From Bryoerythrophyllum caledonicum (taxonomy: Eukaryota > Streptophyta > Bryopsida > Pottiales > Pottiaceae): a stretch of 64,000 nucleotides of DNA. This document shows positions 12,186 through 52,806 of the stretch, in pieces. The first letter of the stretch is position 1. Each line of letters opens with the position of its first letter. The stretch spans positions 16,250,187 through 16,314,186 of the forward strand of contig OZ020525.1 in NCBI GenBank assembly GCA_963971425.1, read 5' to 3'. The translations under genes were made by a program, and so were the position numbers. A model generated the notes under the pieces. It searched no databases, had not been told where the DNA came from, and worked only from the letters and a program-made list of their open reading frames with translations.

Positions 12186-12524
12186 ATCGTCCGACTTCCA
12201 CCCCGACTTCCCGATGAACCCCTGCACGTAGTCGATCCCAAAGAACCCTATCAAGTAGATAAACGACCAGGGTTGTTCGGCCATCCGTCCGTCCGGTAGT
12301 GTCCGTCCGTCCGGCTGTCCGTCCGGTAGAGGCTGCTGTCCGTCCGATAAGGGTCAACCCTAGTTTGACCATGACTCGAGGTAAATCAATTTACCCACTG
12401 CCACGAAGGCGATTACGTGGCTGACACGTCGTCAACAGGGTCGCGCACGTGCAGACAGTGGGGCGGGCGCGTGAAGGGAGCGGGCGCGTCCGGAGATGGG
12501 CCGGGCGCACACTGAAGGGGCCGG

Positions 12525-12724
12525 NNNNNNNNNNNNNNNNNNNNNNNNNNNNNNNNNNNNNNNNNNNNNNNNNNNNNNNNNNNNNNNNNNNNNNNNNNNN
12601 NNNNNNNNNNNNNNNNNNNNNNNNNNNNNNNNNNNNNNNNNNNNNNNNNNNNNNNNNNNNNNNNNNNNNNNNNNNNNNNNNNNNNNNNNNNNNNNNNNNN
12701 NNNNNNNNNNNNNNNNNNNNNNNN
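12525..12724. other. Assembly gap (200 N)
   Basis: A run of exactly 200 unknown bases. It is bordered on the left by GGGCGCGT-rich and on the right by ACGCGCCCGGCCC-rich sequence, inverted copies of each other, so the assembly probably failed in a GC-rich palindrome; the length is a placeholder. Confidence 0.98.
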
Positions 12725-12845
12725 GTACGCGCCCGGCCCTAATTGGAACGCGCCCGGCCCTTCATGAACGCGCCCGGTCCAGATTGGTACGCGCCCGGCC
12801 CCAAATGCTGCGCGCGCGGTCCGAAGGCACGCGCCCGCCCCTTGA
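12725..12845. repeat. GC-rich tandem ACGCGCCCGGCCC array
   Basis: About six copies of a unit of roughly 20 bases, each starting ACGCGCCCGGCCC or a variant, follow the gap; the inverted form lies left of the gap at 12455-12524. Confidence 0.7.
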
Positions 12846-13390
12846 TGTGACGTGGAAAGCCGTCTGACGTGTCGTGCACACGTGTTTTACCAGGGAGTAA
12901 GTTGAAAATTTGATTTAGGGTTCGTAATTTTTTTTTACACGCAACTGTCCGCCAAAAAGTGCTGTCCGTCCTGTCCGTCCGTCCTACTGTCCGTCCGTCC
13001 GCTGTCTTTGGGCCCCTGTCCGTCTATGTAGACAACCCTGTAAACGACAAAAGCTGCACCACCAGCGCCACAATCTCCTTGAGGCTCAGTATGTAGTGGT
13101 GTCGAGCTCCGGATCTTCTCCCTCCACGACCGCAACAACAGCGCTTCAAAAATAAAAACGATACAATAAAAATCTTGTTCGTCAACCCCGCGGGCAACGG
13201 CTGCGCGTCCGACGCCAGTGCATTCCGCACCTTCTCCCGCCGCTTCACCATCGCTGGCGACATCTTCTCCTCGTACTCCCCCATCACGTTGTCGCAAACC
13301 CTAACTGCGACCGTGGATGAAAGCTCGTTTTTCATCGGCGCATTCATCGGCGCGTTCATCCATCGGTGCGTTCATTTGTCATCCTGTAAT

Positions 13391-34251: not shown

Positions 34252-36332
34252 GATTTCGACTAGCGGTGACAACGAATCTAGCGACTCCGATTTTGAGTGC
34301 ACACCGCAGGTGAAGCAGACATCTCGTAAATATGACCTAAAGCGCCGTTACCACCCTAAGTGGGCTGTGGGATTTCCGTGGTCTGTTTATATTGTAGTGA
34401 ATGGGAAAGACCATGTCAAGTGCATAATTTGTACCACCATCAGTGGAAAGAGAAACTCCTTAAGCCTAAGACCAATAACCTCCTCAAGCATGAGGGCCAA
34501 AGCAAGGTACTTTTAGTTTTTATGTCTAATGTCTTTTTGAATTTTCTTATATTATTGAGTTCTTGTACTTTGTTCTATCTCTTGAATCAATTTTGACCAT
34601 GATTTCCGTGCAATCCTCCTCTGCAGGCTAAGAAGGATGGTGAAGTGAAGGGTGTGAAAGGATGCGACATCTACATCAAAAATAAGTGCACACATCACAG
34701 AATTGCTGGTGATTTTGCCAGGCGACCACCCGCGACGGTCCTTCAACAAGTCAATTTCATGACCACAAGCAACCGTCTGAAGAAGTTAACCCAATTTGCC
34801 ACAATTTTTCAAGTGCTCCAGAGTAGCAGACCGATGCTAGAATTTCAAGATCGATAGAGGTTATATATCTTTTTGAAATTTTCAAATGTCCCAAGAATGC
34901 ATTGGTCGACATCCTTTGGGTGGATCATGGCAAAGGCCATGTATGATGTTGTAAGTTCTTGAATAATCTCACTTTTTCATTTTTCTTGTATGTTGAAGTA
35001 TATAGGTTGTTACTCATCATAGGTTGGGAGTCTTGAATGTCTACAGCCTTTTCTTATTTTGAGAGGGGCTACATTGATGCATGGGCTGATGGATAGTGGA
35101 TTGTCTTCACTCATAGGGAGGACGTTTGAATAGCTGAAATGTATGGCTGCCTTGATTGAATGGAACGCAACCTTGATCTAGTGCATACCGGTGTTGGGGC
35201 TTGAGTGTAGAGTTGCTAGAAGTGCTTTTCAATTATAGGAACATTCTTAATCTACTAACAATGTGTAGTGTGCCTTGTATAGCTTAAAGATCATTTGAAG
35301 GCGAAGGTTGAGGGTGCAAACTTCATTGCAATCTCTTGTGATGAGGGCACGGCAGTCGATAATTTATCATGGATTTTCATCCATGCTTACGTGGTGGAGA
35401 ATTGGCGTCGTGTGCCTTAGCTTCTGAAGGTGCACAAAATCACTGATGGCTCAAAGGCTGATGATATTCACATGGTGCTGATTCAGGTCTTGAAAGAACG
35501 TGAACGACTTAATGCCATTCACATTCGGTAGCGACTTGTGAGCTTTGGAGCTCACGGACATGCGATTTTCCAAGGCCACATCAACAGGGTCTCCAAGCAA
35601 CTTAAGGAGAAGCATGCTCTTTTTTCTCAGAGCGTTCATTGTTTTGCTCACAGACGTAACTTGGCATTCAAGGTCTTAAGTAAGATGGCAATCATGGAAG
35701 CAATCGAGCCCTTATTGGCAACGATTTACAACTACTTCAACAAGAGTCCTAAACGTACGCAGGAGTTCAAGGAATTGGTTGAGGTAATGGAGTGTCGTGG
35801 GCTGAAGTTGCTCCGTATAGTGACCACACGTTGGATTAGCCTCGTGGACCCTATGCAGCGGTTGATTTCTCAATATCGACCAGTGCATGCTAAAATGAAC
35901 AACTCTAGGGGGACTAAAGCTATTGCAGAGCTTAGTGCAAATGTTAACTTTTTTACATGGTCAATACTTTTCTCTTCTACATGTTGTGTAGAATTATTTA
36001 GGATGCGTATTCTTCTGTTCTAATTGTCTCCCTAAACTTACCTCTTCATGTGGACATCGTAGGCTTGCTTTGTAGAGATGGTTGACCCAATCGTTTTGTT
36101 AGGGATGCTTGCGGTAATCTCCATGGTAGAGACCTTGGATGTATTCATCACATTTGCGCAAAACCAAGATGTTTTCATTGGCGATTTTGTTGCAGCCCTC
36201 TCCGCATACGACGGTCAACTTTTTAAACATTATGTTGACCATGCCACTTCGTATTGCACGGATGAGTTCACCAATTTCGGGGCGTTGTTGGAACTTTCCC
36301 ACTTCAATATCTTTTTCAAGTGGGATGTTAAC
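34252..36332 (+). pseudogene. hAT transposase gene, 5' part (decayed)
   Basis: Exon 1 holds a BED-type zinc-finger region (HPKWAVGFPWSVYIVV, HVKCIICTTISGK) and, after a frameshift near 34445, LLKPKTNNLLKHEGQSK with the zinc-binding His. Later exons read CTHHRIAGDFARRPPATVLQ, the RNase-H-like core with ISCDEGTAVDNLSWIFIHAY, VHCFAHRRNLAFKVL and TTRWISLVDPMQRLISQYRP. Introns have GT-AG borders (34507, 34626, 34949). Stops interrupt it at 34857, 35418 and 35529. The gene is cut at 36332 by the 9.4-kb element and continues at 45758. Confidence 0.85.
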
Positions 36333-36364
36333 CAGGGTTACCAATCCGACATCCTTGGGGGTCT

Positions 36365-36840
36365 GAGAGCGTCCTAGGGCGTCCTAGGACGAGGACGTCC
36401 TGACGTCACGTCGGACGCAGCGTCCGGGGGGGGTAAAATGCATTTACGGAAGGCCATAGTAAGTTTTCTGAACCGTCAGATTCGACGAAGTGCCACGCGG
36501 CGAGATCTCAGCCGTCGAAATGCGTCAGGTCGTCCGACCGGACCCCGCTGTCGGAAAGATCGGACGGCACCTCGGCCGTCCGCGTGATCGGACGACCGAT
36601 GGACAGATCGTACGGCCCCGATTTCATCGCTGGGGCGCACGACGGCCGTCCGATTAGGCCGACGGCTTTAGGGCCGATCGATCGGGCGGACGGCCGCCCA
36701 TCCGCTCGGCCGTCCGATCCGCGAACGGCTGTCTGATTGGAGGACGGCCGGCCGGCCGTCCGATCAAACGGCCATGGTGGCAGTCGGCCTCATGGCCGTC
36801 CGCCACCCTATAAAAGGCCGTCCGCCAACCTCTCTCTCAC
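36365..36840. repeat. GC-rich GGACGGCCGTCC subterminal repeats, left
   Basis: Many overlapping copies of GACGGCCGTCCG-like words in both orientations; GGACGGCCGTCC is a perfect palindrome. Matching sequence lies near the right end at 45440-45740. Such arrays usually serve as transposase binding sites; that role is inferred. Confidence 0.8.
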
Positions 36841-36964
36841 TTTTTCCTTCCCCTCTCGAAAATTGAAATATATTTTTGAGTGGATGCGGAGTGGCTTTGG
36901 CTGGCATTTTTCCATCCATTGGCTCCTCATCTTTGGGAGGGAGAAAGTGATTCACATTTGGGGG

Positions 36965-37275
36965 GGAGTTTTTGCGGTTTTTTTTAAGTTTTTTTAAAAA
37001 CTTGTTCATAAAATGCTTTTTTCATAGTTTTTTTATAGAACTTGTTCCAAACTAGTTTTTCTCTTCAAGTTTTTTTTAAAACTTGCTCTTAGAAGTTTTT
37101 TCTCATAGTTTTTTTTTTTTACTTGTTCCAAACTAGTTTTTTCTTGAACTTTTTTTTAAAACTTGTTGTAAGAAGTTTTTTCTCTTAGTTTTTTTTAGAA
37201 CTTGTTCCCATCTAGTTTTTTTCTTGAAGTTTTTTTAAAAACTTGTTCTAAAAAGTTTTTTTTTAAAACTTCGAA
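36965..37275 (+). repeat. T-rich tandem repeat upstream of the kinase-like gene
   Basis: About three units of roughly 95 bases, each with CTTGTTCCAAACTAGTTTTT and AAAACTTGTTxTxAGAAG. The array runs to within 20 bases of the kinase-like start codon and probably lies in its 5' untranslated region. Confidence 0.75.
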
Positions 37276-37294
37276 CGGCGGCGGGTTCAAGAAG

Positions 37295-38779
37295 ATGCCG
37301 AAGGACAAGAAGAAGCAGAAGGTTGCGGACTTCGGAGTGAAGCTTCATCCAATCCACGACATTCCATCTGAGGCTTGCAAGAATTTCCTCATAGAACTAA
37401 CCGTCAGATTCTATGAGGAAAATTCTATCCGATCATTGGAGAGCAAGTACGTTCGATATAGAGATGAAGGCCTCGAGAAGTTCCGGACGGGCATGCGGCA
37501 ACACATGATGGACGCGCTTCAAGCCCCGATGTGGAATACGGAGACCCAGAAGCGCGGGTTTTTGAAGTTCTTGGATGCCAGAGTGCACGATTCACTCTGG
37601 AATGCCAGGAACTTGTTGACCAAGTTTGGGAGGTTCGATCGGGCGGCGGATGAAGTTTTCAACGACGTGCTGTTGAAGGCGGATTTGTTCGTGGCCCAGA
37701 TGAAGCCATTCGCCAAGAATCGAAATCGGCGTGGCTCCGTGGGATGGTGGAACTCGATAGAGGGGCACCAAGAAGACCTCTTGCGTAAAGCCCATCTCAT
37801 TGCCATTCCGCCAACAGCTGCGGTTATACGAATGGACAATGCGAACAGGAGAGGTGGATACGCCACCATTCGCAAAGTCCGCATTGAGGGTGCTCCGGGC
37901 ATTGAACCATTCTGGGAATTTGCCGCCAAGTTGTCCAACCAATCGGAGACACGGCCGGATTTGGCAAAAGTTGAGCATCAGAATGAGTCGATGGCGGTGA
38001 GGATTCCACATCTGGGTGTCATCCGTTTCGTGGCCATTCATCCGGACAAATACGAAGGCTATGCGTATTGGTGGAATGGCGGGACAATTCGAGAGATGTT
38101 GAACCGGGATATCAAGTTTGGTGACGATGTCCTCACACATTTGAACTATGGGAGATTCCCCGATGATGAGATTATTCGAGTTCAACAGTTGGTTCGTTTT
38201 CGCAAAAAACGGACCGAGCTTGCGTGGGCGTTGTTGCGCATCATGAACGAGGTCCACAAGAGCAACAATCTCCACAATGACTTGTCTCCGGACAATATCC
38301 TCCTCCACTTCCCTCCAGATGAATCGCGAGTGTATATTGGAGTATGCGATTGGGGCATGACCACGAAGGTTAACGAACCAATGCAGTCTCTTTATACGTT
38401 CACAAAGCGTGAAGACATGGCCGAGACTCTGCGAAAGCGATGGTGGGTCGATCCACGGGTTGCGTATTTGCACAAACCAGATGCGGATGTGCAAATGATT
38501 CCGAAGTTATCAATGGCTTCGGAGGAGTTCGCTACGGCCCGAATAGCGCAACGAATCAACGGGCGGACAATGTCCATAGACTACGAGAATCTGCAACGGG
38601 AATCTCGGAGTTCCGTAGTATTTTCAAATCAAGAATTTGCGGATACATTTCATATGTACATGGAGAGAGTCTGCAACGAAAACCGAGAAAGCGCTGGAGG
38701 ATTGTTTCATATCATTACACGCTTCAACGACACATACAACTGGCCCACGCCTCATGAGCATTATCGGTCAACGTATTAG
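37295..38779 (+). CDS. Protein-kinase-like protein, intact, cargo of the 9.4-kb element
   Basis: A single uninterrupted 494-codon frame. I chose the ATG at 37295 (MPKDKKKQ) because the upstream in-frame ATG at 37202 lies in the T-rich tandem repeat. The C-terminal half is kinase-like: a Gly-containing strand near residue 190 (RRGGYATIRKV), a Lys at about 212 (EFAAKLS, place of the VAIK lysine), HNDLSPDNILL at 327-337 (catalytic Asp 329, metal-binding Asn 334) and DWG at 352-354 in place of DFG. No clear APE motif follows. The first 180 residues are helical and unlike known domains. No signal peptide or membrane segment. The intact frame beside many broken ones suggests recent arrival or use. 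Active kinase or pseudokinase cannot be decided. Confidence 0.8.
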   Translation: MPKDKKKQKVADFGVKLHPIHDIPSEACKNFLIELTVRFYEENSIRSLESKYVRYRDEGLEKFRTGMRQHMMDALQAPMWNTETQKRGFLKFLDARVHDSLWNARNLLTKFGRFDRAADEVFNDVLLKADLFVAQMKPFAKNRNRRGSVGWWNSIEGHQEDLLRKAHLIAIPPTAAVIRMDNANRRGGYATIRKVRIEGAPGIEPFWEFAAKLSNQSETRPDLAKVEHQNESMAVRIPHLGVIRFVAIHPDKYEGYAYWWNGGTIREMLNRDIKFGDDVLTHLNYGRFPDDEIIRVQQLVRFRKKRTELAWALLRIMNEVHKSNNLHNDLSPDNILLHFPPDESRVYIGVCDWGMTTKVNEPMQSLYTFTKREDMAETLRKRWWVDPRVAYLHKPDADVQMIPKLSMASEEFATARIAQRINGRTMSIDYENLQRESRSSVVFSNQEFADTFHMYMERVCNENRESAGGLFHIITRFNDTYNWPTPHEHYRSTY

Positions 38780-39064
38780 TAATACATAGATTTTACTTTA
38801 TTCCTTTCGGCATTATTAGACTATACTAGATAGCATGCACATTTTGAAGTGACCATAGCAATAGTCTTAGATTAATATGTATTACATGCCTTTAAAATTT
38901 GGGCACAAGAAGTAAAAAAACCTTATTTCATATAGCCGTGCAAAGAGCGACATTTTTTGAATTTTATATGGTTTAGGTTGTGGCATAGTTCCGATTTTTT
39001 AACTTATCAATGTGTTCTATTTCAAAATTCTTGTATTTCAGAATTTTTGTTAAAATTACCTCAA
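38780..39064. other. 3' flank of the kinase-like gene
   Basis: AT-rich, with no gene; probably the 3' untranslated region and spacer. Confidence 0.4.
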
Positions 39065-39400
39065 AATATCCTAATCCAACCATATGATGAGATTTTCCTA
39101 CACACCAATTTTTAGAGGTAGAAAAGAACTGTAGCATATTCAAATCAAGCGCGCAAATACTGGAGTTTAAAAATTGCCATTCCATGTTTTATTTTTTAGT
39201 AAACTGAATAAGATTTCAAATGATAATCCAAACCCAGGTTTAGGAAGGTTTTCAGTGTTCACTACATGTTGTTGAAAAGGCAAAATGTGTAAAATATGAT
39301 GATCTCTAGGTTTTATGTAGAGAAGACGTATATCAAATTTTACGAGTTTGAGTTCGAACTTTTGGGATAGATCATAGTGCCCATGGCACAAAATCATACA
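39065..39400 (+). mobile_element. Degenerate fragment of the TTAA element family
   Basis: Matches the middle of the 953-bp element at 41293 (CACACCAATTTTTAGAGGTAG, GTAGCATATTCAAA, GATCTCTAGGTTTTATGT) but lacks both ends. Confidence 0.7.
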
Positions 39401-39509
39401 TAACCTCAACCATTTTATGTTTCTTGAATACAATTTAGCATTTATAGGAATTACCCCCATTTGAAACGCCTCCTCATGCCCGACTCCCTACTCATACAAC
39501 ATGTCTCCT

Positions 39510-40210
39510 ATATCCCTAAAAATATCGTGGCAGTTTTGATCTGGAAACACTTCAAAGTTGTTGGATTCTAGTGCAATGACCATAGAAGGAAACCAAAAGT
39601 TTGATTTCTAGTTGTGACCGTTGGATCTCAATTAAGACTTATTAAAAAATATGTTTACAAAATTTCAGAAACTTTGACCGCACAGATTGAAAGATTATAG
39701 TGTATGAAGTGAAGCAAATGGTTTAGGGTCTTCACTGCGTTTAGTGGATCCGCAGACTTTGACTTTACCTGGCGTCAAAATTTTGAACTAGGCAAGGTCT
39801 AAATCCACTACCTTAAACATGATGGTAGTTCCTTAGACAACAATTTCTTGAGGTAGAGGACAGGTGTAGCGTATTCAAAACAACCATGGAAGTAGTGGAG
39901 GTTCAAACTTTGCCAATTCAAACTTCTTTTTCTTGTGAACTTCATGTGTTTTGAATTACTAATCCGAATGGTCAATAAGAAGGTTTACACCACATATTAA
40001 TGTAGAGAAAATAAAATGTAAGAAATACAAAGATATGTAGGTTTTATGTGAAAATTCATAAGATCTTTTGGTACCTCGCCCGACAATGAGTGACAATGTG
40101 TGAAAATGTTTGACTTGGGTTCGTATGCTATTTTTAAAAATTTCAATAAAGAGAAGACTTGTTTTTTCAAGGGAACGGTGAAATACATCGTTTCTCATAA
40201 GGTTTTCCAT
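39510..40210 (+). mobile_element. Partial copy of the TTAA element family
   Basis: Runs parallel to 41310-41950 (AACACTTCAAAGTTGTTGG, GACCGCACAGATTGAAAGATT, GCCCGACAATGAGTGACAATG), with substitutions and small gaps. The terminal repeats are missing. Confidence 0.8.
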
Positions 40211-40734
40211 GACATTGTCATGTACATTCTTCTAAATATTTACACCTGAATTAGATGCATAGAAAAGTTAAAAGTTTGATTCAAACTTTGCATGTTTAGG
40301 GTTCATGCACGCTTTGACGACGTCCCCTTCCATCCAATTGTATTCTTTCCGTGTCCATCATCATATTATTGTTTCAAATGAGATTTCAAACGAGACACCT
40401 TACATGTCTTGTAAATGAATATCGCCATATATAACAAATTTGAAAACACAACCAACACTAACACACAAAAAACATGCATGAGATCGAATGTGATGAACAT
40501 ATTCTCTAGCCATAATCTACATCCAAAGTTTAGTCCCTAAAATGTTATTTTTAAGTACACTCCAAAATGTCAAATTTTCAAAACTTTTATAACAATCTTT
40601 TTGCTTACTTACTAGATGAATTCGCACCTAAGCAGCCCAAACCCGAAGTCGGAATTGAAAAAAAAAACATTTTGGAAGTTATTAAGTCGCTGTTATGTTA
40701 ATTCTGCCCAAAAAAGTTAATTCTGCCCAAAAAA

Positions 40735-40985
40735 ATAGTTTCATCCACTGTGGATGAAATTCTATGCGGTGGAAGAAAAATCCTGCAGCGGATGAAAATT
40801 TCCGCAGCGGATGAAAATGTCCGCAACGGATGAAAAACAACGCAACGAATTAAAAACAAGCTGCGGATGGAAAAAAAACTGCGGATGAAAAATCACCATG
40901 CGGAGGAAAATCAAAGTCCGGTTTAAATGTTTGCAGCGGATGAAAACATTCGCAGCGGATGAAAAGTAGACTGCAGATGAAATTT
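40735..40985 (+). repeat. Array of GCAGCGGATGAAAA units
   Basis: About a dozen irregular copies of an 18-20 base unit. It opens with CATCCACTGTGGATGAAATT, which also occurs, with one change, at 42360-42380 on the far side of the 953-bp element. Confidence 0.75.
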
Positions 40986-41292
40986 TTAAAACCTCATTAT
41001 AATATTAAACTACATTACAATGGTTGGACTTATGCGTTGCAAAGCAAGCGCCAACCGCTAATTTGCATCTATAGAAGTTTGGTAGTGGTTCGCACTTGTT
41101 TTGCAACGCATTATAACAACCACTTTAATGAATTCTCTATATTATTTAATATTAAGAAAAACATTCATTTCAAAATTACTTTTAAAAAACTGGAAGACTA
41201 GAGAAGGAGCGGGTTACAAACATTAAGTGTTTCTTAATAGTGTTCGTGATGATTCTTAACACTTTGCCATAGTCATTCGCGGACGATTTTCA

Positions 41293-42245
41293 TTAACCCC
41301 TAAGGTACCAAGGCAATTTTACACCAAAAACACTTCAAAATTAATGGATTCTAGTGCAATGAATAAAGAAGGTAACAAAAAATTTATTTTTAGTTCTGAC
41401 CGTAGGATCTCAATAAAGGCTTATTAAGTAATACATGAACAAAATTTCATAAACTTTGACCGCACGGATTGAAAGATTATAGTGTTTGAAGTCAAGCAAA
41501 TGGTTCATTTTCTTCCCTGCGTTTAGTGGATCAGCAGACTTTGACTTCAGTTGGTGTCAAAAAATTTCACTACAAAAGGTCTAAATCTATTACCATCTTG
41601 TTAAGCATGATGTTAGCTCCTTACACACCAATTTTTAGAGGTAGAGACAGGGTGTAGCATATTCAAAACAAGTGTGCAAGGAGTAGAGGCTCGAAATTTG
41701 TTAATTCACACTTTAATTTTTTTTGAACTTAATATGTTTTTGATTGATAATCCGAATGGTTAATAAGAAGGTTTACATTACATCTTGTTGTGGAAAAAAT
41801 AAAAAGTGAAAAATATGAAGATCTCTAGGTTTTATGTGGAAAAGAAGAAGTTTTTTTGGTACCTTGCCCGACAATGAGTGACAATGTGTGAAAATGTTTG
41901 ACTTGGGTTGGTATGCTATTTTTCACTAAAGACAAGAACTTTTTTTTGACAACATGAAGGGAAATAATATTACTTGCGAGTACTGAAAATCTCACTTTCA
42001 ATAGAGTGTCCTATCAAAAGTTTTTGGAGGTGCTCGAGGTGCCCGCCCTCCCCATTTGAAATTAAAAACCCTATAACTATTTCATCAAATGTCCAATTTA
42101 GGAAAAAAATTGTTTTCCCACTAAGGTCTTGGTAATGCCCTTCTATGGTAAGAATTTCAAAGATGAATGTTTGAAATTGACAGCATAGGAACCTGACCAA
42201 ATTTTCCAAAAGCCCGTTTTGGACACTTGGTCCTTTAAGGGTTAA
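41293..42245 (+). mobile_element. 953-bp TTAA-flanked piggyBac-like MITE
   Basis: Begins TTAA-CCCCTAAGGTACCAAG and ends CTTGGTCCTTTAAGGG-TTAA, so the inverted ends start CCC and sit between TTAA sequences. PiggyBac elements are known for TTAA duplication and CCC-starting ends. Its reverse complement at 48510-49463 is 954 bp and closely similar throughout. It has no protein frame of note and is non-autonomous. Confidence 0.75.
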
Positions 42246-44545
42246 AGTGCGCCTGTGCGCACATACCTGTGCGACTGGCCCGCGTAGCTTCTGAAGACTG
42301 TTTTTCGTCCAGAGATTGTTTTTTCAACCAAGGACTGTTTTTCCATCCTCTGACTATTTTCATCCACAGTGGATGAAATTATAATTTGGCCACATTATAT
42401 TAATAGTGGATATTGGCTCTCTAAGTAGGGTTATATTTAGTAGAAAAAATAAATTGTGTAGGAGGTTTTCCAAAAACCACATTCTTGTGTGTGTTAATAA
42501 AGCATTTTAAGGAAGTTCAATGCCTAACTCCATAGGTAGATTGCTACAACATATTTACTCGGACATCTAGAATCATAACAATTTAAAGCAATGAAGTATA
42601 TGCAATCATTAATACAAACATGCATACATTAAATTGTAGAGGCATTCAAATATGAATAGCAAAAATGCTTGTAGGAAGATTTTGTTGTATTCATTGATAT
42701 TGTATAATGTATTTGGTATACCATTTCGTGTACTCTATAGAGTAATTTCCACACACTAAAATATCCTTAGAGCATAACTTATGGCCATACACAAAACATG
42801 ACAAATCATCACAACACAGTACAACAACTAACCCGCACACATATTCACTGACTGTATCAATGCACTTTATCTACTAAACATCCAAATAACAAACCCTATC
42901 CTCTACAATAGCCATCTCGACCAAACCATTTTAATGTCGTTGATCCACATGTTACAAAACAGAACACATATAACAATCCTTCACAAAGTTCTGCGCAAGC
43001 AAATATCGATGGAAACAAACAAGCAAATAAACTTGGAAAAGAGGTCCGCAAAAAAACGCATGAAAATGCCAAAGACTTGTACGAACATCCACATGCTACC
43101 CCATACCACTTCCAAAAAGAATATTGGCCTCCTAAAGAGGATACCCTCATTAAGGTTCCGGTTTTATTCTTGAACAAATATCTCAAGAAAGAAGACCTCT
43201 ATAACAACCTTGACACAATCAAATAAAACTTCCCTAATATAGAATAATGGGTTCGCAACAACAAAATAGACTATGAACTCTCTACAAATGCTTCGAAAAA
43301 TTCCATCATCCCGAACTCACAAATAACATGCGTCATCAAATTCCGTAATAGTCGATATTTGGAAACACCGGAAAACAACTCTTATTTGGAATAGAAAAAT
43401 TCCCATATGTAACATGCCCCATATGCACTTTCTCAGACGCCGACAAATCACTCCATGTTCTACCAAAAATGCCAAAACCATCACATACACTCCTTAATTG
43501 TCACAAGACATAACAAAGCAGTACGAGAAATTCGAAAACTATTTACCTCCCATAACAAATCACGATGATTTATCCTCATGAATGCCGGCACCTTTAATAA
43601 CAAGTTACAACCCACAAGGAAATACGGTCCCCCCTTGGCTACTCCCGAGTCCCATGTACATGCGCAACATAGCGTTGTCTTTGTAACGCTAGACTCAAAG
43701 CCGACATACTTTGCATTCGGGGCCTACCATACAATGACCCACCATCGACCACATTAACCAAGAGTATACCATTCAATTCATCGAATTCACATATTGTAAT
43801 GATAGATTCTCCCCGGAAACAATTGAAAACAGAATAAATGAATACCAACCCAGCAACCCCTTATTAATGACATCGTTGCCCTCGGATGGAAAATGGACCC
43901 GCTTATTGTAATCACTGTCGATGCTCATGCCTCCACCTTTATCCCATATATAAATATCCTTTTGAGATACCTTTAAAATCTCTATCGAAACTATTTCACA
44001 CACTTTCAATATTATTAATACTGTTGCCATTCAACAGGCCATGTCCATTCTACTACACCAACGCAAAATGGAAAAGAAACCAAGCCCTCCTTGACAGGGT
44101 GTCTGGTGGGTATGGTCTTAGTGATGGAACGAACAGATTCTTTATTCACGCCGGCTCCTTTGCGGAGCGGCGTTTCTCTTCTTGCTTTAACTTCTGGATC
44201 AGAAATAGTCAAGGAACTTTAGAGGTACAGGTTGAAAAAAAATTTATTTAACATGTAATGATATGAAATACTCTTTAACTTTTATGAGGTGAATGAAAAG
44301 TTGGAATGTATAAAAATTTCTCATTCCACACATCCACTTATACTAAAAAATTATCAATAAAATTCATTTGGAAACATGTAGCATGCATTGTACATTCATC
44401 ATCCACATTGACATGGCCGCAACGTAGAAATATTTAACAAATGTCGATTTGAAGATCTTAAAGAATGACCTTCTAAATGTACAAAATAGTCAACATTGTT
44501 CTCACATGAAGACATTATCCACATGGATTACATTACACAGAGACC
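42246..44545. other. No gene recognised
   Basis: Mostly AT-rich with short frames that match nothing I know on either strand. Confidence 0.5.
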
Positions 44546-44551
44546 ATGTAT

Positions 44552-45179
44552 GATTAATCGGAATCTGAGTCAGTATCACGTCTTTGACTTGGCCCAGCGC
44601 CACTTGAGTACAACCCGCTTGAATAAACATCATACAAGTTATTGTATTGCCTGTTCATGTAGCGAGATTCATCTTCGAGCTTGCGGATGTACTCGTTCTG
44701 GCTTTGTATTGTGGCTTCATGCATTTGTCTTTCAAACTCAGCATCTTCGTTCTGACGAGGTGGAAACGTTGATGGAGGTGTGTTGTCTCTTCCATCTAAT
44801 CTCCGGCCATATCCATCGTAAGGATGGCCATATACGTCGTAATAGACGTGTCCAGGGTTTGGAGTGTCGTGTTCTTCCTCTTTTCTGGGGGAATTACGAC
44901 CAGACTCGTACGTATCCCTTGGATGCGTTCGCGTATAGCTCTGAGGGGTGTTGGTCCCTGTACCACATTGGCCGCCATCCAATGAACGGCCATATCCATG
45001 GTAAGAACCGCCTTATCCTTGGTAATAGATAGGTGCAGAGTTTGGGGTGGTATGTTCTTCCTCTTCTCCCGGGCAATTACGACCAGACTCGTACGTACCC
45101 TTTGGATGCGTTGGCGTATACCTCTGAGGGGTGTTGGTCCCTGTACCACATTGGTCGCCTTCATAGTAATGGCTGCCAC
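44552..45179 (-). pseudogene. C-terminal part of an unknown protein with tandem 60-residue repeats
   Basis: The minus-strand frame ends at 44554 with SQRRDTDSDSD after a helical stretch (NEYIRKLEDESRYMNRQYNN). Upstream are two units with QCGTGTNTPQ, THPxxTYESGRN, EEEEH and TPN, ending YY and YDGYGRRLDG; the DNA unit is about 186 bases. A single TAA near 45013 splits the frame. The upstream part is lost in the gap. Gly/Tyr/Arg-rich repeats before an acidic coiled tail resemble C-terminal tails of some plant hAT-like transposases; this is only an impression, and it could be what remains of the element's own transposase. Confidence 0.35.
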
Positions 45180-45379
45180 NNNNNNNNNNNNNNNNNNNNN
45201 NNNNNNNNNNNNNNNNNNNNNNNNNNNNNNNNNNNNNNNNNNNNNNNNNNNNNNNNNNNNNNNNNNNNNNNNNNNNNNNNNNNNNNNNNNNNNNNNNNNN
45301 NNNNNNNNNNNNNNNNNNNNNNNNNNNNNNNNNNNNNNNNNNNNNNNNNNNNNNNNNNNNNNNNNNNNNNNNNNNNNNN
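45180..45379. other. Assembly gap (200 N)
   Basis: Exactly 200 unknown bases, between a tandem repeat on the left and GC-rich subterminal repeats on the right; true length unknown. Confidence 0.98.
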
Positions 45380-45429
45380 ATACTCACGGTGATTCAGACC
45401 GTTGGGAGACGATTCATTGTCAATCTAAT

Positions 45430-45745
45430 AGGGGACGGGGGAGCTGTACTGAGAAGGCCGTCCGCCGCGGCGGTCGGCCTTGGCGGATGGCCCTGGCGGA
45501 CGGCGGTCGGCCGTGGCGGTCGGCCATGGCGTACGGCCACGCGGACGGCGGACGCCGGTCACTTGAAGCGGACGGCCGTGCCGTCCGCCCAAGCGAACGG
45601 AATGGGCGGTCGGCCGGGACTGTGGACGGCTATTTACCCCCGGGTAAATTGACAAAACTGGTTATGTCACCGGACGTCCTGATAGATCGGAGGACGTCCT
45701 CCGTCCTGACGTCCGGACGTCAGGGACATCGAGCGTCCTGACAAC
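45430..45745. repeat. GC-rich GGCCGTCCGC subterminal repeats, right
   Basis: Copies of GACGGCCGTCCGCC, GGCGGTCGGCC and GGACGTCC in both orientations, mirroring 36365-36840 at the other end of the 9.4-kb element. Confidence 0.8.
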
Positions 45746-45757
45746 CCTGATGTTAAC

Positions 45758-46587
45758 CTAAACACTCAATGGGAGCAGCTGATGTAGAAGTTGGATGGTG
45801 TGGAGGTACCTGCTCTCCACGAAAACAAACCCATTGATCGTATGGTCTTTCAATCCATGGCTGCCAACGTTAAGGTGCAATGCACGGATGCGTCTTCTAT
45901 CTTTTGTATTTTTGTATTTTATTATTGTGGTTCATTGCTCACCTTAGTTGTTTGTACCATTTTTTGTATGCAGAGGCTGCAATGGCCTTGAGGATTGAAT
46001 TGAAGGAGCGCTTTCCCTCGGTGGAGACGTTGAACGCGATGGAGATGTTCTATCCCCAGTATTGGATATAAGAATATTCTCTCAGCACTTTCCCAGCTCA
46101 TTTGGAGATTCTCAAACGCCAGCTCTGCGAGAGTAGGGAGATAAAGGTTGTTGGGGCCGCGTGGCAAAAGGTTGTGGTTCCCTCTTTGCTGAATGGCTTT
46201 GATCTTGACTCCGAGTAGTCAATGTTCAAGCTTTTTATGGCTAATAATTGTGTGCGTGCTTGCACTAAGCCTTTTGATGGGAATCCTTTGACAAAGATAT
46301 GGCGTGTTGTCCAAGCCAACACACCTCTTGTAGGCCGATTTCCGACGTACCTCAAATTGGCGGAGATCGCCGTGGTGATGGTTTTGGGCTCAATTGAAGA
46401 TGAAAGAACCTTCAGTTCTCTCACATTCTTGAAGTCCCGTCTTTGTAACGCTCTTGATGATCACTTGGGGTTGGTAGTTGGTATGTTTTCTCAGAGACTT
46501 TTTGAGTTGGAGATGTTTCCATATGAAGAAGCATTTCAGCTGTGGATTAAGACCACGGAGGGATTTCGTTATGGGTCTGAGGAGTAG
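45758..46587 (+). pseudogene. hAT transposase gene, 3' part with hATC dimerisation region
   Basis: The frame continues from 36332: LNTQWEQLM, a stop, then KLDGVEVPALHENKPIDRMV; after an intron (acceptor near 45972) it reads ALRIELKERFPSVETLNAME. The C-terminal hATC region has RFPTYLKLAEIAVVMVLGSI and EDERTFSSLTFLKSRLCNAL, the dimerisation box typical of hAT transposases. Two further stops occur at 46069 and 46219. The protein ends at 46585-46587. Confidence 0.85.
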
Positions 46588-46589
46588 GA

Positions 46590-47090
46590 TGATCGTGTAG
46601 AAGATTTTCTGCCTTTATTTCTTTGTGTTTTAATTTTTGGGTAGTGGACCCAAATGTTGAGCTTTTATGCATCTTAGTATTTTTTCATCACTTGCATTTT
46701 CAAGTTCTGTGCATTGTATTTGAATTATAAATAACAGTATTTGTGTTGCAGTTGTTGGTGGCATGAATACATTACTCAACATTATGGATGGGCATAGGTG
46801 GGTGATGTATTTTTGTGGGTGGGGTGGGCTGTGGGCACACAAGATTGCTGGAGCTCTAGAAAGGCTTGTATCACATGAGTTGGATGAGTTGGGAGTGGGC
46901 ATGTCTGGGGTAGTATTGCTCATTTTGTGGAATGCTTATACTGTAGATTGCTCATGTTGTGGGTTTAGAATGTTGTGGATTTAGAATGTGAGGCACCTTC
47001 ATGTTGTCTTTTGTAGCTTGAATTCCCTTGGAAATTTATAATTCCATTGTAGCTATCTACTCAAAATGAAAAAAAGGGCTAGTGAAAACA
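46590..47090. other. No gene recognised (right interior of the large element)
   Basis: GT-rich sequence with one 73-codon frame (46763-46984) without recognisable domain. Confidence 0.5.
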
Positions 47091-47900: not shown

Positions 47901-48034
47901 TAGGAATTGATCGCTTCCAAATCTTCAGGTTGAGGAGGCTGAATCGTGAACTAGAATTTTTGACTAGTTTAATGGTTGAGTTTCGGATTTCATACAACGA
48001 GTTTATTCGGGTCAATAGCAGTTTATTCAAGCTA

Positions 48035-48345
48035 CACCGTTCTCCGAATATAGTGTGGACCAGAGAAATACGACATTTTGCACTAATTAGAAATTTACAC
48101 GCAATTGGTGACTGGCACCCACTTCCTTGGATATGAATGCCCAATTGGTGCACGGTTTCCCGGTGACCGCCCTAGTTAATGATTGGTCGACTGGCAACTG
48201 GCCAGACGCTGCCTTGGTCGCTTAGCGAGTCAGCAACTAGGTCCTAAGGGGGGGGGGTAAATTGGACATCACCCAATTTACCCATGTCCGGACAACATCT
48301 CGGACTGGATTGACGTCCAAGATGTTTGAGGCCGTGGATTTGGAC
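48035..48345. mobile_element. 0.3-kb insertion with CACCGTTC end in the duplicate's 3' flank
   Basis: Compared with 52900-52960, this locus has about 300 extra bases after AAGCTA. The insert starts CACCGTTCTCCGAATATAG, the end sequence of the block at 10101-14130. The right border, near 48336-48345, is blurred, so a target duplication cannot be stated with certainty beyond the flanking TA on the left. Confidence 0.5.
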
Positions 48346-48509
48346 GTATGTGATCATGTATTAGATGTTCCTAGTTTGAAGATTTAACCATGATGGTTCA
48401 TTTTTCACCTCTCATATTTTGTCTACATATTGCACGATGAGCTTGCCTCCTTATTTTAATCTGGACAGAACCTACCCCTTTATTTTTATTTTAGACACGG
48501 GGGCCTAAT

Positions 48510-49463
48510 TTAACCCCTAAGGTACCAAGTGTCCAAAAAGGGCTTTTTGAAAGTTCGGTCAGGTTCCTATGGTGTCAATTTCCAACATTCTTCTTTGAAA
48601 TTTTTACTGTAGAAAGACATTACCAAGACCATAGTGGGAAAACAATTTTTTCCTAAATTGGACATTTGATGAAAAAGTTATAGGGTTTTGAATTTTAAAT
48701 GGGGACGGCGGGCACCTCTGGCACCTCCAAAAACTTTTGATAGGACACTCTACTGAATGTGAGATTTTCAGTACTTGCAAGTAATATTATTTCCCTTCAT
48801 ATTGTCAAAAAAAAGTTCTTGTCTTTAGTGAAAAATAGCATACCAACCCAAGTCAAACATTTTCACACATTGTCACTCATTGTCGGGCAAGGTACCAAAA
48901 AAACTTCTTCTTTTCCACATAAAACCTAGAGATCTTCATATTTTTCACTTTTTATTTTTTCCACATCAATATGTAATGTAAACCTTCATATTGACCATTC
49001 GGATTATCAATCAAAAACATATTAAGTTCACAAAAAAAATAAAGTGTGACTTAACAAATTTCGAGCCTCCACTCCTTGCACACTTGTTTTAAATATGCTA
49101 CACCCCGTCTCTACCTCTAAAAATTGGTGTGTAAGAAGCTAACATCATGCTTAACAAGATGGTAATAGATTTAGACCTTTTGTAGTGAAATTTTTTGACA
49201 CCAACTGAAGTCAAAGTCTGCTGATCCACTGAACGCAGGGAAGAAAATGAACCATTTTCTTGACTTCAAACACTATAATCTTTTAATCCTTGCGGTCAAA
49301 GTTTATGAAATGTTGTTTACGTAGTACTTAATAAGCCTTTATTGAGATCCTACGGTCAGAACTAAAAATCAAAGTTTTTGTTACCTTCTTTATTCGTTGC
49401 ACTAGAATCCATTTAGTTTGAAGTGTTTCGGGTGTAAAACTGTCACGGTAGCAAAGGGGTTAA
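48510..49463 (-). mobile_element. 954-bp TTAA-flanked piggyBac-like MITE, inverted copy
   Basis: TTAA-CCCCTAAGGTACCAAG at the left and AAAGGGG-TTAA at the right; the whole sequence is the reverse complement of 41293-42245 with scattered changes. No coding capacity. Confidence 0.75.
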
Positions 49464-49834
49464 TCATGGTGGGATTTTAAGAGTAAGTGCATCCCTGCAA
49501 CTTGCACTCAAAGCACGCTCGACCAGACGTTTGCAGAGGCTAAATAAAGCATCCGTGAGGGAGTTTTCGGTTGGTGCCTCAGCATTCCATGGTGCTCTCG
49601 CTTCCGCCTTTCGCTTCGAGCTCTTTGCTTCGATTCCTGCAATGGAATTCCGCGGATACAGACAAACGTGAACCTCCTTTGCGCATACACAAACAAAAGT
49701 GTGCTTGACTTTCGGGGATATTGTCAAGAGGACAAGGATTTTCGGGATGAGCCAGGGAAAACTAGACGGAAAATGGGAAATTCCTGTGGAGAGAGCTGTC
49801 GAGGGAGCTGCAGGGGATGCTCTGACATGGCGCG
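49464..49834. other. No gene recognised
   Basis: A plus-strand frame from 49699 (GKLDGKWEIPVERAVEGAAG) is open but has no recognisable family. Confidence 0.4.
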
Positions 49835-50104
49835 GACAGGAAACCCCCCAAGCTCAGGCTTACCCGAGGTGGGGGCCCGTCTTAATTGCATGGGCTCATT
49901 TTTCTGGCCCTCCCATTTTGGGGGCGGTCAGTGGCTTTTTTTGGCTTTTTATTCTACAAAATTGGGGCCTACGGCCTCAGTTTAGTCTCTAGGTTCCCCT
50001 TTGGCTAAATTTAGGGCCCCATCCAAAAACAGAATAGGGGCCAGGTTTTGGCCCCACCACCTCCTCCCCCACCTGGTAAGTCTGAGCGTGGGGGGTTTCC
50101 TGTC
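49835..50104. mobile_element. 270-bp GC-rich MITE
   Basis: Inverted ends GACAGGAAACCCCCC and GGGGGGTTTCCTGTC, continuing as related CTTACCxGAGGTGGGGGCC words inside. GCTCTGACATGG stands a few bases outside both ends (about 49818 and 50110) and could be a target duplication. The inside matches 62894-63161 in the opposite direction (CCCATCCAAAAACA, CTAATTGCATGGG-like). Confidence 0.65.
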
Positions 50105-50179
50105 AAATCGCTCTGACATGGGGACCCAAGCCCCAAATCTGATAAAAACAAATATAAAAACAAATAGAATGAAGTTATT

Positions 50180-50320
50180 AGATCCCAAAATAAGAGGTCA
50201 GAATATGACCCCCTGCAATTAAGACAAGGGCCCACCCTCCGAAATAAGCTCGTGCCTCCAAAATATGGGCGTCTCACTCAAAAAGTAATGCCCTTCATTC
50301 ACACAAAATGTGGAAAAGCT
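50180..50320. repeat. Repeat shared with 57700-57860
   Basis: CCCAAAATAAGAGGxCAGAA, GACAAGGGCCCACC and a following CACTCAAAAAGT-like stretch recur in the same order at 57700-57860. The last part overlaps the degenerate CACTA-like MITE. Confidence 0.55.
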
Positions 50321-50412
50321 TGTTTATTCTAGTCATTTGTGACCGGATTGACTCACTTCCAAAATGGTTTAAATAGTAAATGAGGAGCGACAGGGTTGCT
50401 AGTGCTGTTGTG
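50240..50412. mobile_element. Degenerate copy of the short CACTA-like MITE
   Basis: Contains CTCACTCAAAAAGT, TGTGGAAAAG and GGAGCGACAGGGTTGCTAGT as in 51082-51243, but its left end is eroded. Confidence 0.55.
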
Positions 50413-51081
50413 AGATACTTGTTCCAGCGACTAGGGTTGGTTTTCATCGCAAGAGCTCGACCGACGTATTTCACGATACGCTGTAAGCGCGACATATCCT
50501 TATTCGCAGGACTATAACCCTGAATTCAACTCAAAATTGCTGCAAGAGGTGCTTCATGGCAAGAGCAAGGCCGCTCACATCTTTCAACCAAGAGGGATAA
50601 TGGAGATTTTGATATTGGACGTCCTCATACCTGCAGCCATGCCAGGCGTCGGCCCAAATGAGGTGAGAGGGGCGACGTCGGCTTCTTCACAAATCTTTGT
50701 CAGGAAGGAGACGCTAGAGCAAATGTCGTTGCTGATCTGGCCCACTGACAGGTGCCCACTGAGAATTCCTGGCAGATCATGGGGCTCTGTTCACGGGTCT
50801 CATTGGCTGTGAATCTGCAGGATCTCTCCAGAACTCGCATGATACGCGGTACCGACACTGCTTTTATTCAATATTTAATGAAGACCCTATATTGTACGAT
50901 TCCTAACAGAAATCTTAGGAAACATCGGTTACTTATCAGTGGAAATTCTGCTAACTTGCTTCAGAACCTCATGTGACCAGGGTTGTCTGCAATTGTCTGC
51001 ACCGTTCCTCTGCGTGTCTGTCCGATACGCCCCATGTCTACTATGATTGTAAAGATTTGATTAAATTTGGGCATATTCAAA

Positions 51082-51243
51082 CACTACAAGCAACCCTGTC
51101 GCTCGTCACTCAAAAAGTGTCGTCCTTCACTTACGTAGAATGTGGAAAAGGATTATTTTTCTTGTCCTTTGTGATTCGAGTGACTCACCCACTTCTAAAA
51201 TGCTTGAATTAGTAACTAAGGAGCGACAGGGTTGCTAGTAGTG
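51082..51243. mobile_element. 162-bp CACTA-like MITE
   Basis: Ends CACTACAAGCAACCCTGTCG and the inverted form (CAGGGTTGCTAGTAGTG), flanked by AAA (51079-51081 and 51244-51246). The duplicate at about 21495 shows the empty site (CATATTCAAAGAACTACCAT). CACTA ends with a 3-bp duplication are the rule for the CACTA superfamily. No coding capacity. Confidence 0.9.
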
Positions 51244-51810
51244 AAAGAGCATCCATAAGATTTTGAGGTATACACTAAGAGATGGTACATCCGTCATGGC
51301 CGTTAGGGATAGCTGAAGGGCCAGTTCCTTCGTCTAAGTAGACTCTCCTGCATATGGCCCACGACACTGTTGAGACGTGTGTAAAATCTGTCTGTACAAG
51401 CATCACTGTTCAGGTCGAGAGAGGGAATCATGTCGAGAGTTTTGTGATTTACCTGGAATTTGACCCAACACTACCAGGCTCCCAAGCCGTGTATAAGACA
51501 CGGTCAGGGTACTACAGACAATTATCTGAAGTCTGTATGATCACAAGGTGATAAATCAATCCTACTTTACATTGTGACGGTGATTTGCGTCATGCTGAAG
51601 CTACAAAATATATAACTTAAATGTAGTTCCGTGAATTTGCAACTGTATGATCCTTGCGCGCTACTTCAAGCAAGGATATAAAATTTAATGTACTGATATC
51701 GTTTCTAGTTACTCCTGTGACTTGTCCTAGTATTCAGTGCAACTCTGTAGTTTCTTGATTTCGGTTTCGGAACTAGTCTCGCCGAGAATTGATTGTGAGA
51801 GGGAATTGGG

Positions 51811-52806
51811 ATGTCCGCGCCTAATAGTTTCGGACCGCTGTCCACGAGGTCGACGAATGCGACATACCGTGGAGCGAGTCCCTTCCAGTCCGTGCTCAGT
51901 CTGTCGACGTTCATGACAGGATTCAAGGCGGAGGGGACGAACGTGTTCGGGGAGCGAGCTGCGGCCGAGTATTCAGTGCTGCCCCCGAGCGGTGAACCCG
52001 CATACTTTCATTTTCTGCTGGACGGGTCCGGGAGCACATACGAGAGAGTAAAGACGGGCGACAAGAAGCGCGTGTACAAGCACCTGCTGAGGAATCTCGA
52101 GCACCTCGTGGAGTGCAGGGACACCCTGCGGCCGCACGACGTGATCTACGTGTGGACGTTCAACACGCGCGTGCAGCTGCTGTGCCGCGCGGAGCGCCGT
52201 AGCCTCCGCGCGCACCTTCCCGACATCCGCGCCGCATACAAGCGCGAGTTCGACGACGCCACGAAGTACTACCGACAGACGCGCCTGTATGACGCGATCG
52301 GCGCCGTGATGGCGACGATCCGGGAGGAGTACATTAGGCACAAGAAGGCCGACTACTTCCTGGTGCCATTCACGGACGGCGAGGACATTGGGAGCGAGAC
52401 GAAGACCCTGAACTCCATGATGAACGACGTGAACAACTCCATCGGCGGCAGGCTGCACACGATCTTCATCACGGCCAACATGGCGCCCACGTCGGAGCTC
52501 TACCAGCGGCTGGAGAGTCAGCAGAACGAGATCATGCATGTGGACTGCGAGAAGACGGAGCCGCACGACATCAGCAGGGCTTTCAACACGCTGCGTGGGC
52601 TCATCAAGGTGAAGCTCGTGGTGATCCACCAGCGTGGGGACGAGATCCACGTGACGAGCGTGGCCAACTATGGGTACAACACCCTCGACGCGGCGGAGAG
52701 GATGATGCTCACGCTGCAGTCGTTGCCCAGAGAAACTTCCATGTTGGATGGCTTGAGCCAGATGAGAGGTGGGAACTCCATAGCTCATGCACCGCATAAG
52801 TACTGA
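51811..52806 (+). CDS. von Willebrand factor A domain protein, intact
   Basis: 331 residues with one vWA domain from about residue 64 to 285. The metal-ion-dependent adhesion site looks complete: DGSGS at 71-75 (D-x-S-x-S), Thr 157 (QTRLYDAIG) and Asp 189 (FTDGEDIGS). Strands YFHFLL and VIYVWTFN and the segment RLHTIFITANM fit the Rossmann-like fold. No signal peptide or membrane helix is seen, so an intracellular, protein-binding role is likely; the partner is unknown. No intron is needed. GC at third positions is much higher than in the surroundings. Another vWA paralogue starts at 63605 and a broken one lies at 22771-47900. The start codon is the first ATG of the aligned family start. Confidence 0.9.
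   Translation: MSAPNSFGPLSTRSTNATYRGASPFQSVLSLSTFMTGFKAEGTNVFGERAAAEYSVLPPSGEPAYFHFLLDGSGSTYERVKTGDKKRVYKHLLRNLEHLVECRDTLRPHDVIYVWTFNTRVQLLCRAERRSLRAHLPDIRAAYKREFDDATKYYRQTRLYDAIGAVMATIREEYIRHKKADYFLVPFTDGEDIGSETKTLNSMMNDVNNSIGGRLHTIFITANMAPTSELYQRLESQQNEIMHVDCEKTEPHDISRAFNTLRGLIKVKLVVIHQRGDEIHVTSVANYGYNTLDAAERMMLTLQSLPRETSMLDGLSQMRGGNSIAHAPHKY

Follow-up and report, generated by a model that had tools for sequence, protein, structure and literature searches.

What kind of genetic unit is it in which an intact protein kinase-like gene lies between the ends of a DNA transposon? This question is raised by a stretch of 64,000 nucleotides from the moss Bryoerythrophyllum caledonicum (contig OZ020525.1, positions 16,250,187 to 16,314,186; hereafter the window), in which the segment 36333-45749 has the ends of a hAT element and encodes a kinase-like protein. 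The explanation that we favour, with a probability of roughly 0.6, is that this segment is a copy of a three-gene hAT transposon, encoding a kinase-like protein (gene 1), a hAT transposase and a zinc-finger-like, tyrosine-rich protein (gene 2), in which the kinase likely has an accessory role, that of regulating how the element transposes. Directly observed are its ends and 8-bp duplications, the spread of the kinase together with gene 2, and two three-gene elements with exact duplications. Of these characteristics, the ends, the duplication and the transposase are those of known hAT elements, and it is the two-gene accessory module which is new.

In hAT elements generally, the transposase excises the element and reinserts it with the formation of an 8-bp duplication. 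In the window copy, the tips CAGGGTT and AACCCTG form a 7-bp exact inverted repeat and, as the initial annotation of this locus from its sequence had reported, they are bordered by an exact 8-bp duplication. When all 351 pairs of CAGGG and CCCTG motifs lying 0.1-20 kb apart in the window were examined, exact 8-bp duplications were present for 2 of them, as against 0.006 (from base composition) or 0.019 (from a shifted control) that are expected. The kinase-like gene of 494 codons described between these ends was also found to be intact. However, the 9.4 kb given earlier for the element is not its true length, because a gap of 200 N lies inside it. There are only two N runs in the window, each exactly 200 long and one inside each of two duplication-flanked elements (viz. 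the one considered here and a second one at 12268-13040), and both are taken as assembly placeholders. Based on comparison with an element at 57.9 Mb on contig C1 (see below), the piece missing from the window copy is estimated at ~5 kb. In this copy, the kinase is intact, gene 2 shows damage in at least part of its length and no transposase is seen, this gene being either in the gap or lost, and therefore the copy may depend on other copies. Dense repeats had been described at both ends, and for the left end this description stands, as GGACGGCC or its complement occurs 8 times in the first 520 bp, whereas shuffled sequences reach at most 4. The exact 11-mer GACGGCCGTCC occurs a single time in the window; the density of the left end is that of shorter versions of it. 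The commonest 8-mer of the right end is present 5 times in comparison to up to 6 times in shuffles, and by this measure the repeats there are not beyond chance.

Further copies were sought in the 437-Mb genome, whose 894 contigs are referred to by C-numbers and the pieces extracted from it by L-numbers. The best 87 of 2120 first-look candidates for kinase loci were scored; the window's own locus shows 100% identity and the others 93-97%. No stop is present in 31 of these loci, one in 31, two in 19 and three in 6, the stops in the scored copies being mostly TGA and TAG. The best-scoring loci on large contigs provided 20 further copies (10 kb each), a sample which is biased towards good kinases. 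In 18 of these 20 copies the CAGGGTT left end is found 0.6-1.1 kb before the kinase ATG (it is absent in L009 and L017), and these 18 copies together with the window have 19 distinct 8-bp flanks. A search for other copies with the same ends, as had been suggested for this locus, thus reveals many further kinase-bearing copies, and the possibility of a solitary copy, which had been named as fatal to a transposon family, did not hold. If the kinase had been established at this locus before the element, with hAT-like ends around it by coincidence, the same left end should not recur at unrelated sites with different flanks; nothing in favour of this explanation was found, it is refuted by the 18 copies and we give it virtually no weight. 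Both ends were found for eight elements, in seven of which (viz. the window copy, L012, L013, L014, L019, C1:57881340-57896373 and C1:13548916-13565461) the duplication is exact, and in one (L026) it has one mismatch. With the exception of L009, L018 and L028, which are interrupted relative to the window element, the extracted copies (17/20) are co-linear with it over most of its length, in stretches that are mostly 95-97% identical (90-97%). Compared with L019, 16 copies have diverged by 0.3-3.9% per 250-bp bin, mostly by ~1%, the genes no differently from the interior, and such even and low divergence is what a single unit that multiplied in a recent burst should show. The kinase frames of the 21 copies, inclusive of the window, are 97.2-99.8% identical without any indel, and 7 of the 21 have an inner stop. 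A CTATAAA motif is present in 18 of the 20 copies, in 17 at -488 to -492 and in one at -408 before the kinase ATG, the other two being without it; the position of this motif suggests that the left end probably contains the kinase promoter.

The proposal of a kinase-carrying hAT family, made in the initial annotation, is borne out by these copies with the same ends and different flanks, but it was incomplete, as the family encodes gene 2 and a transposase as well. A family encoding only a kinase was considered and rejected on account of gene 2 in L019 and the transposase in the 57.9-Mb element on C1. Full gene 2 (L019:8143-9375, stop included) has 410 residues from the first ATG and lies on the strand opposite to the kinase. 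Among the 20 copies, it is present end to end in 14 (of which two lack one repeat and some contain stops or small indels), in part in 3, and not at all in 3; L020 is one of the partial cases because the extracted piece ends there. Of 2327 candidates for gene 2 loci, the best 102 were scored, and one of these lies near 55 of the 87 scored kinase loci, in convergent orientation in 54 of the 55 and at a spacing of 7.79-7.90 kb in 25. Starting instead from four gene 2 loci and guessing the position of the kinase, kinase sequence was present in 2 of the 4 pieces of 3 kb. Exactly one 183-bp unit fewer is seen in gene 2 of L016 and L022, and its subfamilies vary in tail length and repeats, reaching 455-462 amino acids (aa) at L039 and L042.

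The transposase was approached by a Pfam search of the genome for the hAT dimerisation domain, in which the best 150 of 1150 candidates were scored. On the 5' side of a scored gene 2, up to 30 kb away, there are 11 such loci, at distances of 1.9-24.8 kb and all 11 on the same strand (p = 0.001 for the strand match). There are none on the 3' side, and the expectation for both sides together is ~2.1. A transposase of this kind, L047:1-2397:-, matches DUF659 (1e-33) and Dimer_Tnp_hAT (7.4e-9) and lies inside an element with an exact duplication; against PDB by sequence it gave nothing convincing (best E 0.4). With this transposase as query, the best 56 of 3038 candidates were scored, and those near gene 2 are on the gene 2 strand in 8 of 8 cases, and those near a kinase are convergent with it in 8 of 9 cases, at 11.4-19.7 kb. 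The ninth transposase (C8:7230827-7233133) is on the kinase strand, just outside the expected left end of an element with a kinase at 7228368-7229849, an arrangement that would fit the insertion of one copy next to or into a second one. Two elements bounded by exact duplications hold all three genes. One of them, C1:57881340-57896373 (15,034 bp), has AACCCTG followed by AGTTCAAT at its right end and AGTTCAAT as its left flank, with an open transposase frame just inside the right end, and according to the search tables there is no stop in its kinase, gene 2 or transposase; its sequence was read in two outer parts, excluding 57890742-57893599. The other, C1:13548916-13565461 (16,546 bp), read at its ends only, has GATTTAAG on both sides and spans a kinase, a gene 2 and a transposase locus. 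Because the second gene and the transposase are present in other copies, the window element is to be understood as a hAT transposon whose accessory module consists of two genes and not as a lone captured kinase.

Gene 2 has a family of its own, with 23 relatives at E <= 0.01 (371-543 residues) in a set of 5.8 billion proteins; with its tail alone as query, no relatives were found. The first ~160 residues are conserved in this family (WTCTxCKxYVKMKHL, C..HF..RY, MAMVWAEIVLHK and PSDC), with two members lacking the start, and the tail is variable, with 19-38 tyrosines. By eye, C43, C46, H54, C78 and H82 suggest a candidate zinc site. The structure prediction for the conserved domain (residues 11-150) is of good confidence, the predicted local distance difference test score being >= 84 in 12 of 14 ten-residue blocks; a Foldseek comparison of this domain with PDB gave nothing at E <= 0.001, and the gene 2 sequence has neither a PDB match nor a convincing Pfam family. 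The suggestion that gene 2 is a truncated transposase was rejected in view of its own family of 23 homologues and the presence of a hAT Pfam domain in 0 of 24 members.

In the kinase-like protein of the window, all six catalytic landmarks (viz. the glycine loop, Lys, Glu, the Asp of HxD, Asn and the Asp of DxG) are kept; they are invariant in 34 of 34 aligned members, and a kinase fold is predicted in silico. The Pfam Pkinase score is 24.2 bits, under the cut-off of 31.7, and in the catalytic loop, HNDLSPDN, a serine replaces the usual lysine. A PDB sequence search gave weak matches only (best E 0.004), and no relatives were found in scans of GTDB genome contigs, viral contigs and plasmids. 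One relative, P0033, is annotated as an ordinary protein-kinase gene in a moss. A kinase lineage of greater age (P0049-like, 53-68% identity) is also present in this genome, but among the scored matches it is seen only in the form of fossils with stops, at 19 loci. Of these, 13 are on C1, which makes up 15% of the genome (p = 2e-7), and C1 may be a low-recombination chromosome.

If the kinase has a function for the element, it should be maintained by selection over longer times, whereas if a host kinase was captured once and is carried without function as a passenger of a successful family, it should not. Two older kinase copies were found via gene 2 and thus not chosen by kinase quality, and when the window kinase is compared with them in three stretches, the ratio of nonsynonymous to synonymous change (dN/dS) is 0.34 (305 codons), 0.40 (184) and 0.33 (266). 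Of the columns conserved in distant relatives, 48 of 48 are unchanged in the window copy, as against 70 of 281 variable columns that differ (p = 5e-6). For gene 2, five copies belonging to different subfamilies were compared in all 10 pairings, and dN/dS is 0.10-0.41 throughout in the conserved domain and 0.56-0.94 in the tail. Both companion genes thus appear from these ratios to be under purifying selection in most older-younger comparisons. The results for the kinase, as well as relatives reaching down to 25% identity and the fossils of the older kinase lineage, speak against a passenger, and this explanation seems quite improbable to us, although plant DNA transposons, as far as we know, do capture gene pieces and at least one stop is present in 56 of the 87 scored kinase copies.

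Several observations weigh against a functional three-gene element, and the first of them also favour a passenger. The two older kinase copies, compared with each other, have a dN/dS of 0.79 over 120 codons; hence the purifying selection on the kinase that the initial annotation had proposed to look for is seen for the window against older copies but not for this older pair. Recent kinase copies are weakly constrained, with dN/dS of 0.73 for singleton and 0.45 for shared changes, and for recent gene 2 copies the corresponding values are 0.67 and 1.18, the latter on 12 changes. However, if copies decay once they have inserted, weak constraint among the recent ones is to be expected. In the best candidates of each list, 32 of the 87 scored kinases have no scored gene 2 nearby and 48 of the 102 scored gene 2 loci have no scored kinase. 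Some of the loci look like duplicate contigs, since C6:2172814, C19 and C126 share score and stop pattern, as do two on C14. Among the 8 convergent transposase-kinase pairs there may thus be 6 that are independent, because three of them may be one locus on duplicate contigs. Stops are present in all three genes of the 13.5-Mb element on C1. No transposase was found in the window copy or in L012, L013, L014, L019, L022, L023, L025, L037 and L038, and most of these nine pieces also end in a gap or at the limit of the extracted DNA. Both ends together with a 200-N gap are present in L012, L013/L037, L014 and L019/L038, and these copies would be without a transposase unless the gap hides more than 200 N. 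Lastly, S/T-P sites in the gene 2 tail exceed those in shuffles in only 7 of 24 members, by which the idea that this tail is a kinase substrate is weakly supported.

As for how a three-gene element might work, the kinase gene points inwards at the left end, whereas gene 2 and the transposase gene both face inwards from the right. The transposase presumably cuts and pastes the element, and the CpG-rich arrays at its ends may be bound by the gene 2 protein through the conserved Cys/His domain. The kinase could then phosphorylate a partner belonging to the element or to the host, i.e. the transposase, the repeat tail of gene 2, or a host repair or silencing factor, and this phosphorylation would set when or how well the element moves. 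However, the accessory genes may be directed at the host, the kinase and gene 2 acting not on transposition itself but, for instance, against silencing, DNA methylation or cell-cycle factors, so that a CpG-rich element escapes repression. The observed/expected CpG ratio is 1.15-1.32 at the four ends of the two window elements versus 0.74 in 48001-52000, and among the changes in the 21 kinase copies 117 of 169 are C>T or G>A, with CpG as the site of 50 of these. This excess, like the TGA and TAG stops, is as expected from methylated copies, and the lack of a clear substrate motif borne by the element leaves room for a host target. Nevertheless, no direct evidence points to such a target, and gene 2 has no convincing Pfam or PDB match; we consider a host-directed role unlikely, but less so than a passenger.

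The features of the window are listed in Table 1.

Table 1. Features of the hAT-type element in the window, and of a second element of the same build
Feature	Position	Strand	Remarks
Target-site duplication, left copy ATGTTAAC	36325..36332	.	exact 8 bp
Left end, with CAGGGTT at the tip, followed by a GGACGTCC-type zone, a GGTAAA..TTTAC palindrome and a GGACGGCC/GGCCGTCC array	36333..36832	+	same tip in 18/20 other copies
CTATAAA, candidate TATA box of the kinase gene	36808..36814	+	487 bp before ATG; putative promoter role
Gene 1, kinase-like, 494 aa, intact	37295..38779	+	frame 37295-38776
Interior without long genes; dispersed repeats and decayed RNase H fragment of long interspersed nuclear element (LINE) type (by eye)	38780..44550	.	
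Only the 3' part of gene 2, with tandem 61-aa repeats that contain one in-frame stop, and a tail that ends in DTDSDSD	44551..45179	-	
Assembly gap, 200 N, at the place occupied in a three-gene copy by the hAT transposase gene and the beginning of gene 2	45180..45379	.	
Remnant of the DNA directly preceding the hAT transposase start (residues 1-15 of the frame L047:1-2397:-)	45380..45424	-	tblastn 93%/15 residues; blastn 93%/122 bp
Right end: GC-rich array, TTTACC..GGTAAA palindrome, GGACGTCC zone, AACCCTG tip	45425..45749	-	
Target-site duplication, right copy ATGTTAAC	45750..45757	.	exact 8 bp
Second element, built alike, with CAGGGTTGT ends and duplication TAAACGAC; a 200-N gap conceals its interior	12268..13040	.	

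The second element has, besides its exact 8-bp duplication TAAACGAC, a 9-bp inverted repeat, GTCCGTCC zones and GCGCCCGGCCC arrays. The four ends of the two window elements are of one build, consisting of a tip, short GGAC-type repeats, a GTAA/TTAC palindrome that begins at 100-141 bp, and a GC-rich array. The palindrome pattern is seen at four other places in the window and therefore by itself proves little. The sequence of the GC-rich array differs between the two elements, and 12268-13040 is probably another subfamily with its own arrays. The gene flanking the kinase-bearing element (34900-36332 and 45758-46590) is broken by several stops. It had been read as another hAT transposase gene, whose frame is restored upon removal of the element. 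A frame does run through the rejoined flanks, but a stop follows soon after, and as Pfam calls none of the three pieces of the flanking gene, insertion into a hAT transposase gene was not confirmed. By eye, the end of this gene resembles the hAT dimerisation region. In the interior of the element, the LINE-type RNase H fragment lies at 42400-44250, and in L009 (3103-5046) a 648-aa open version of this stretch follows directly after the kinase gene. A stretch of 0.95 kb, 41292-42246, is 93.7% identical, in inverted orientation, to 48509-49464 outside the element, and at its place most other copies hold only ~0.4 kb.

In comparison to known systems, the element resembles hAT elements (Ac/Ds, Tam3, hobo) in its 8-bp duplication, CAGGG-type tips, subterminal repeats and a transposase with DUF659 and a C-terminal dimerisation region, but differs from them in having three genes in 15-16.5 kb, two of which are not transposases; to our knowledge, known hAT elements carry one transposase gene in a few kb. 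A transposase with a separate accessory protein, and short end repeats, are also, so far as we are aware, the architecture of En/Spm (CACTA) with TnpA and of Mutator with MURB; however, these differ in superfamily, duplication length and proteins, and we know of no kinase encoded by either. As in Pack-type or transduplicated genes, a cellular-type gene lies between transposon ends, but unlike in those, the kinase is often intact, is under apparent purifying selection in most comparisons and is accompanied by a transposase in two bounded elements. The kinase is similar to FunK1 (Pkinase_fungal), a fungal family with lineage-specific expansions, described in the accessible part of PMC3203195 as having a serine at the usual catalytic-loop lysine, in being divergent and expanded and in this serine. 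In Coccidioides, genes with kinase terms lie preferentially near transposable elements, according to the accessible part of PMC5872316. However, PF17667 matches just 3 of the 34 members of our family (best E 0.011) and not the window protein at E up to 0.1; hence the identification of the kinase as FunK1 was rejected. No hAT structure around FunK1 is reported in the accessible parts of these sources. The accessible part of the survey PMC6027215 states that no moss hAT sequences were detected. By title or the start of the abstract, no hAT element with a kinase gene was found in the literature, subscription papers being mostly beyond this search.

A broader extension of these results, which we hold tentatively and at somewhat less than even odds, is that there is a hAT lineage with the kinase and the zinc-domain, tyrosine-rich partner as permanent components of its transposition machinery, which regulates itself by phosphorylation, is old (as its extinct relatives would indicate) and has spread among mosses. 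DNA transposons are normally viewed as one transposase between two ends. If the three-gene interpretation is correct, then this element would, so far as we know, be the first candidate for a switch that acts on transposition by phosphorylation and is encoded by the element itself; it would also provide a young, multi-copy system of this kind. It may also explain a large family of kinases which in at least one moss (P0033) are annotated as ordinary protein kinases; if those copies too sit in such elements, then annotators would be counting transposon genes as kinases of the host.

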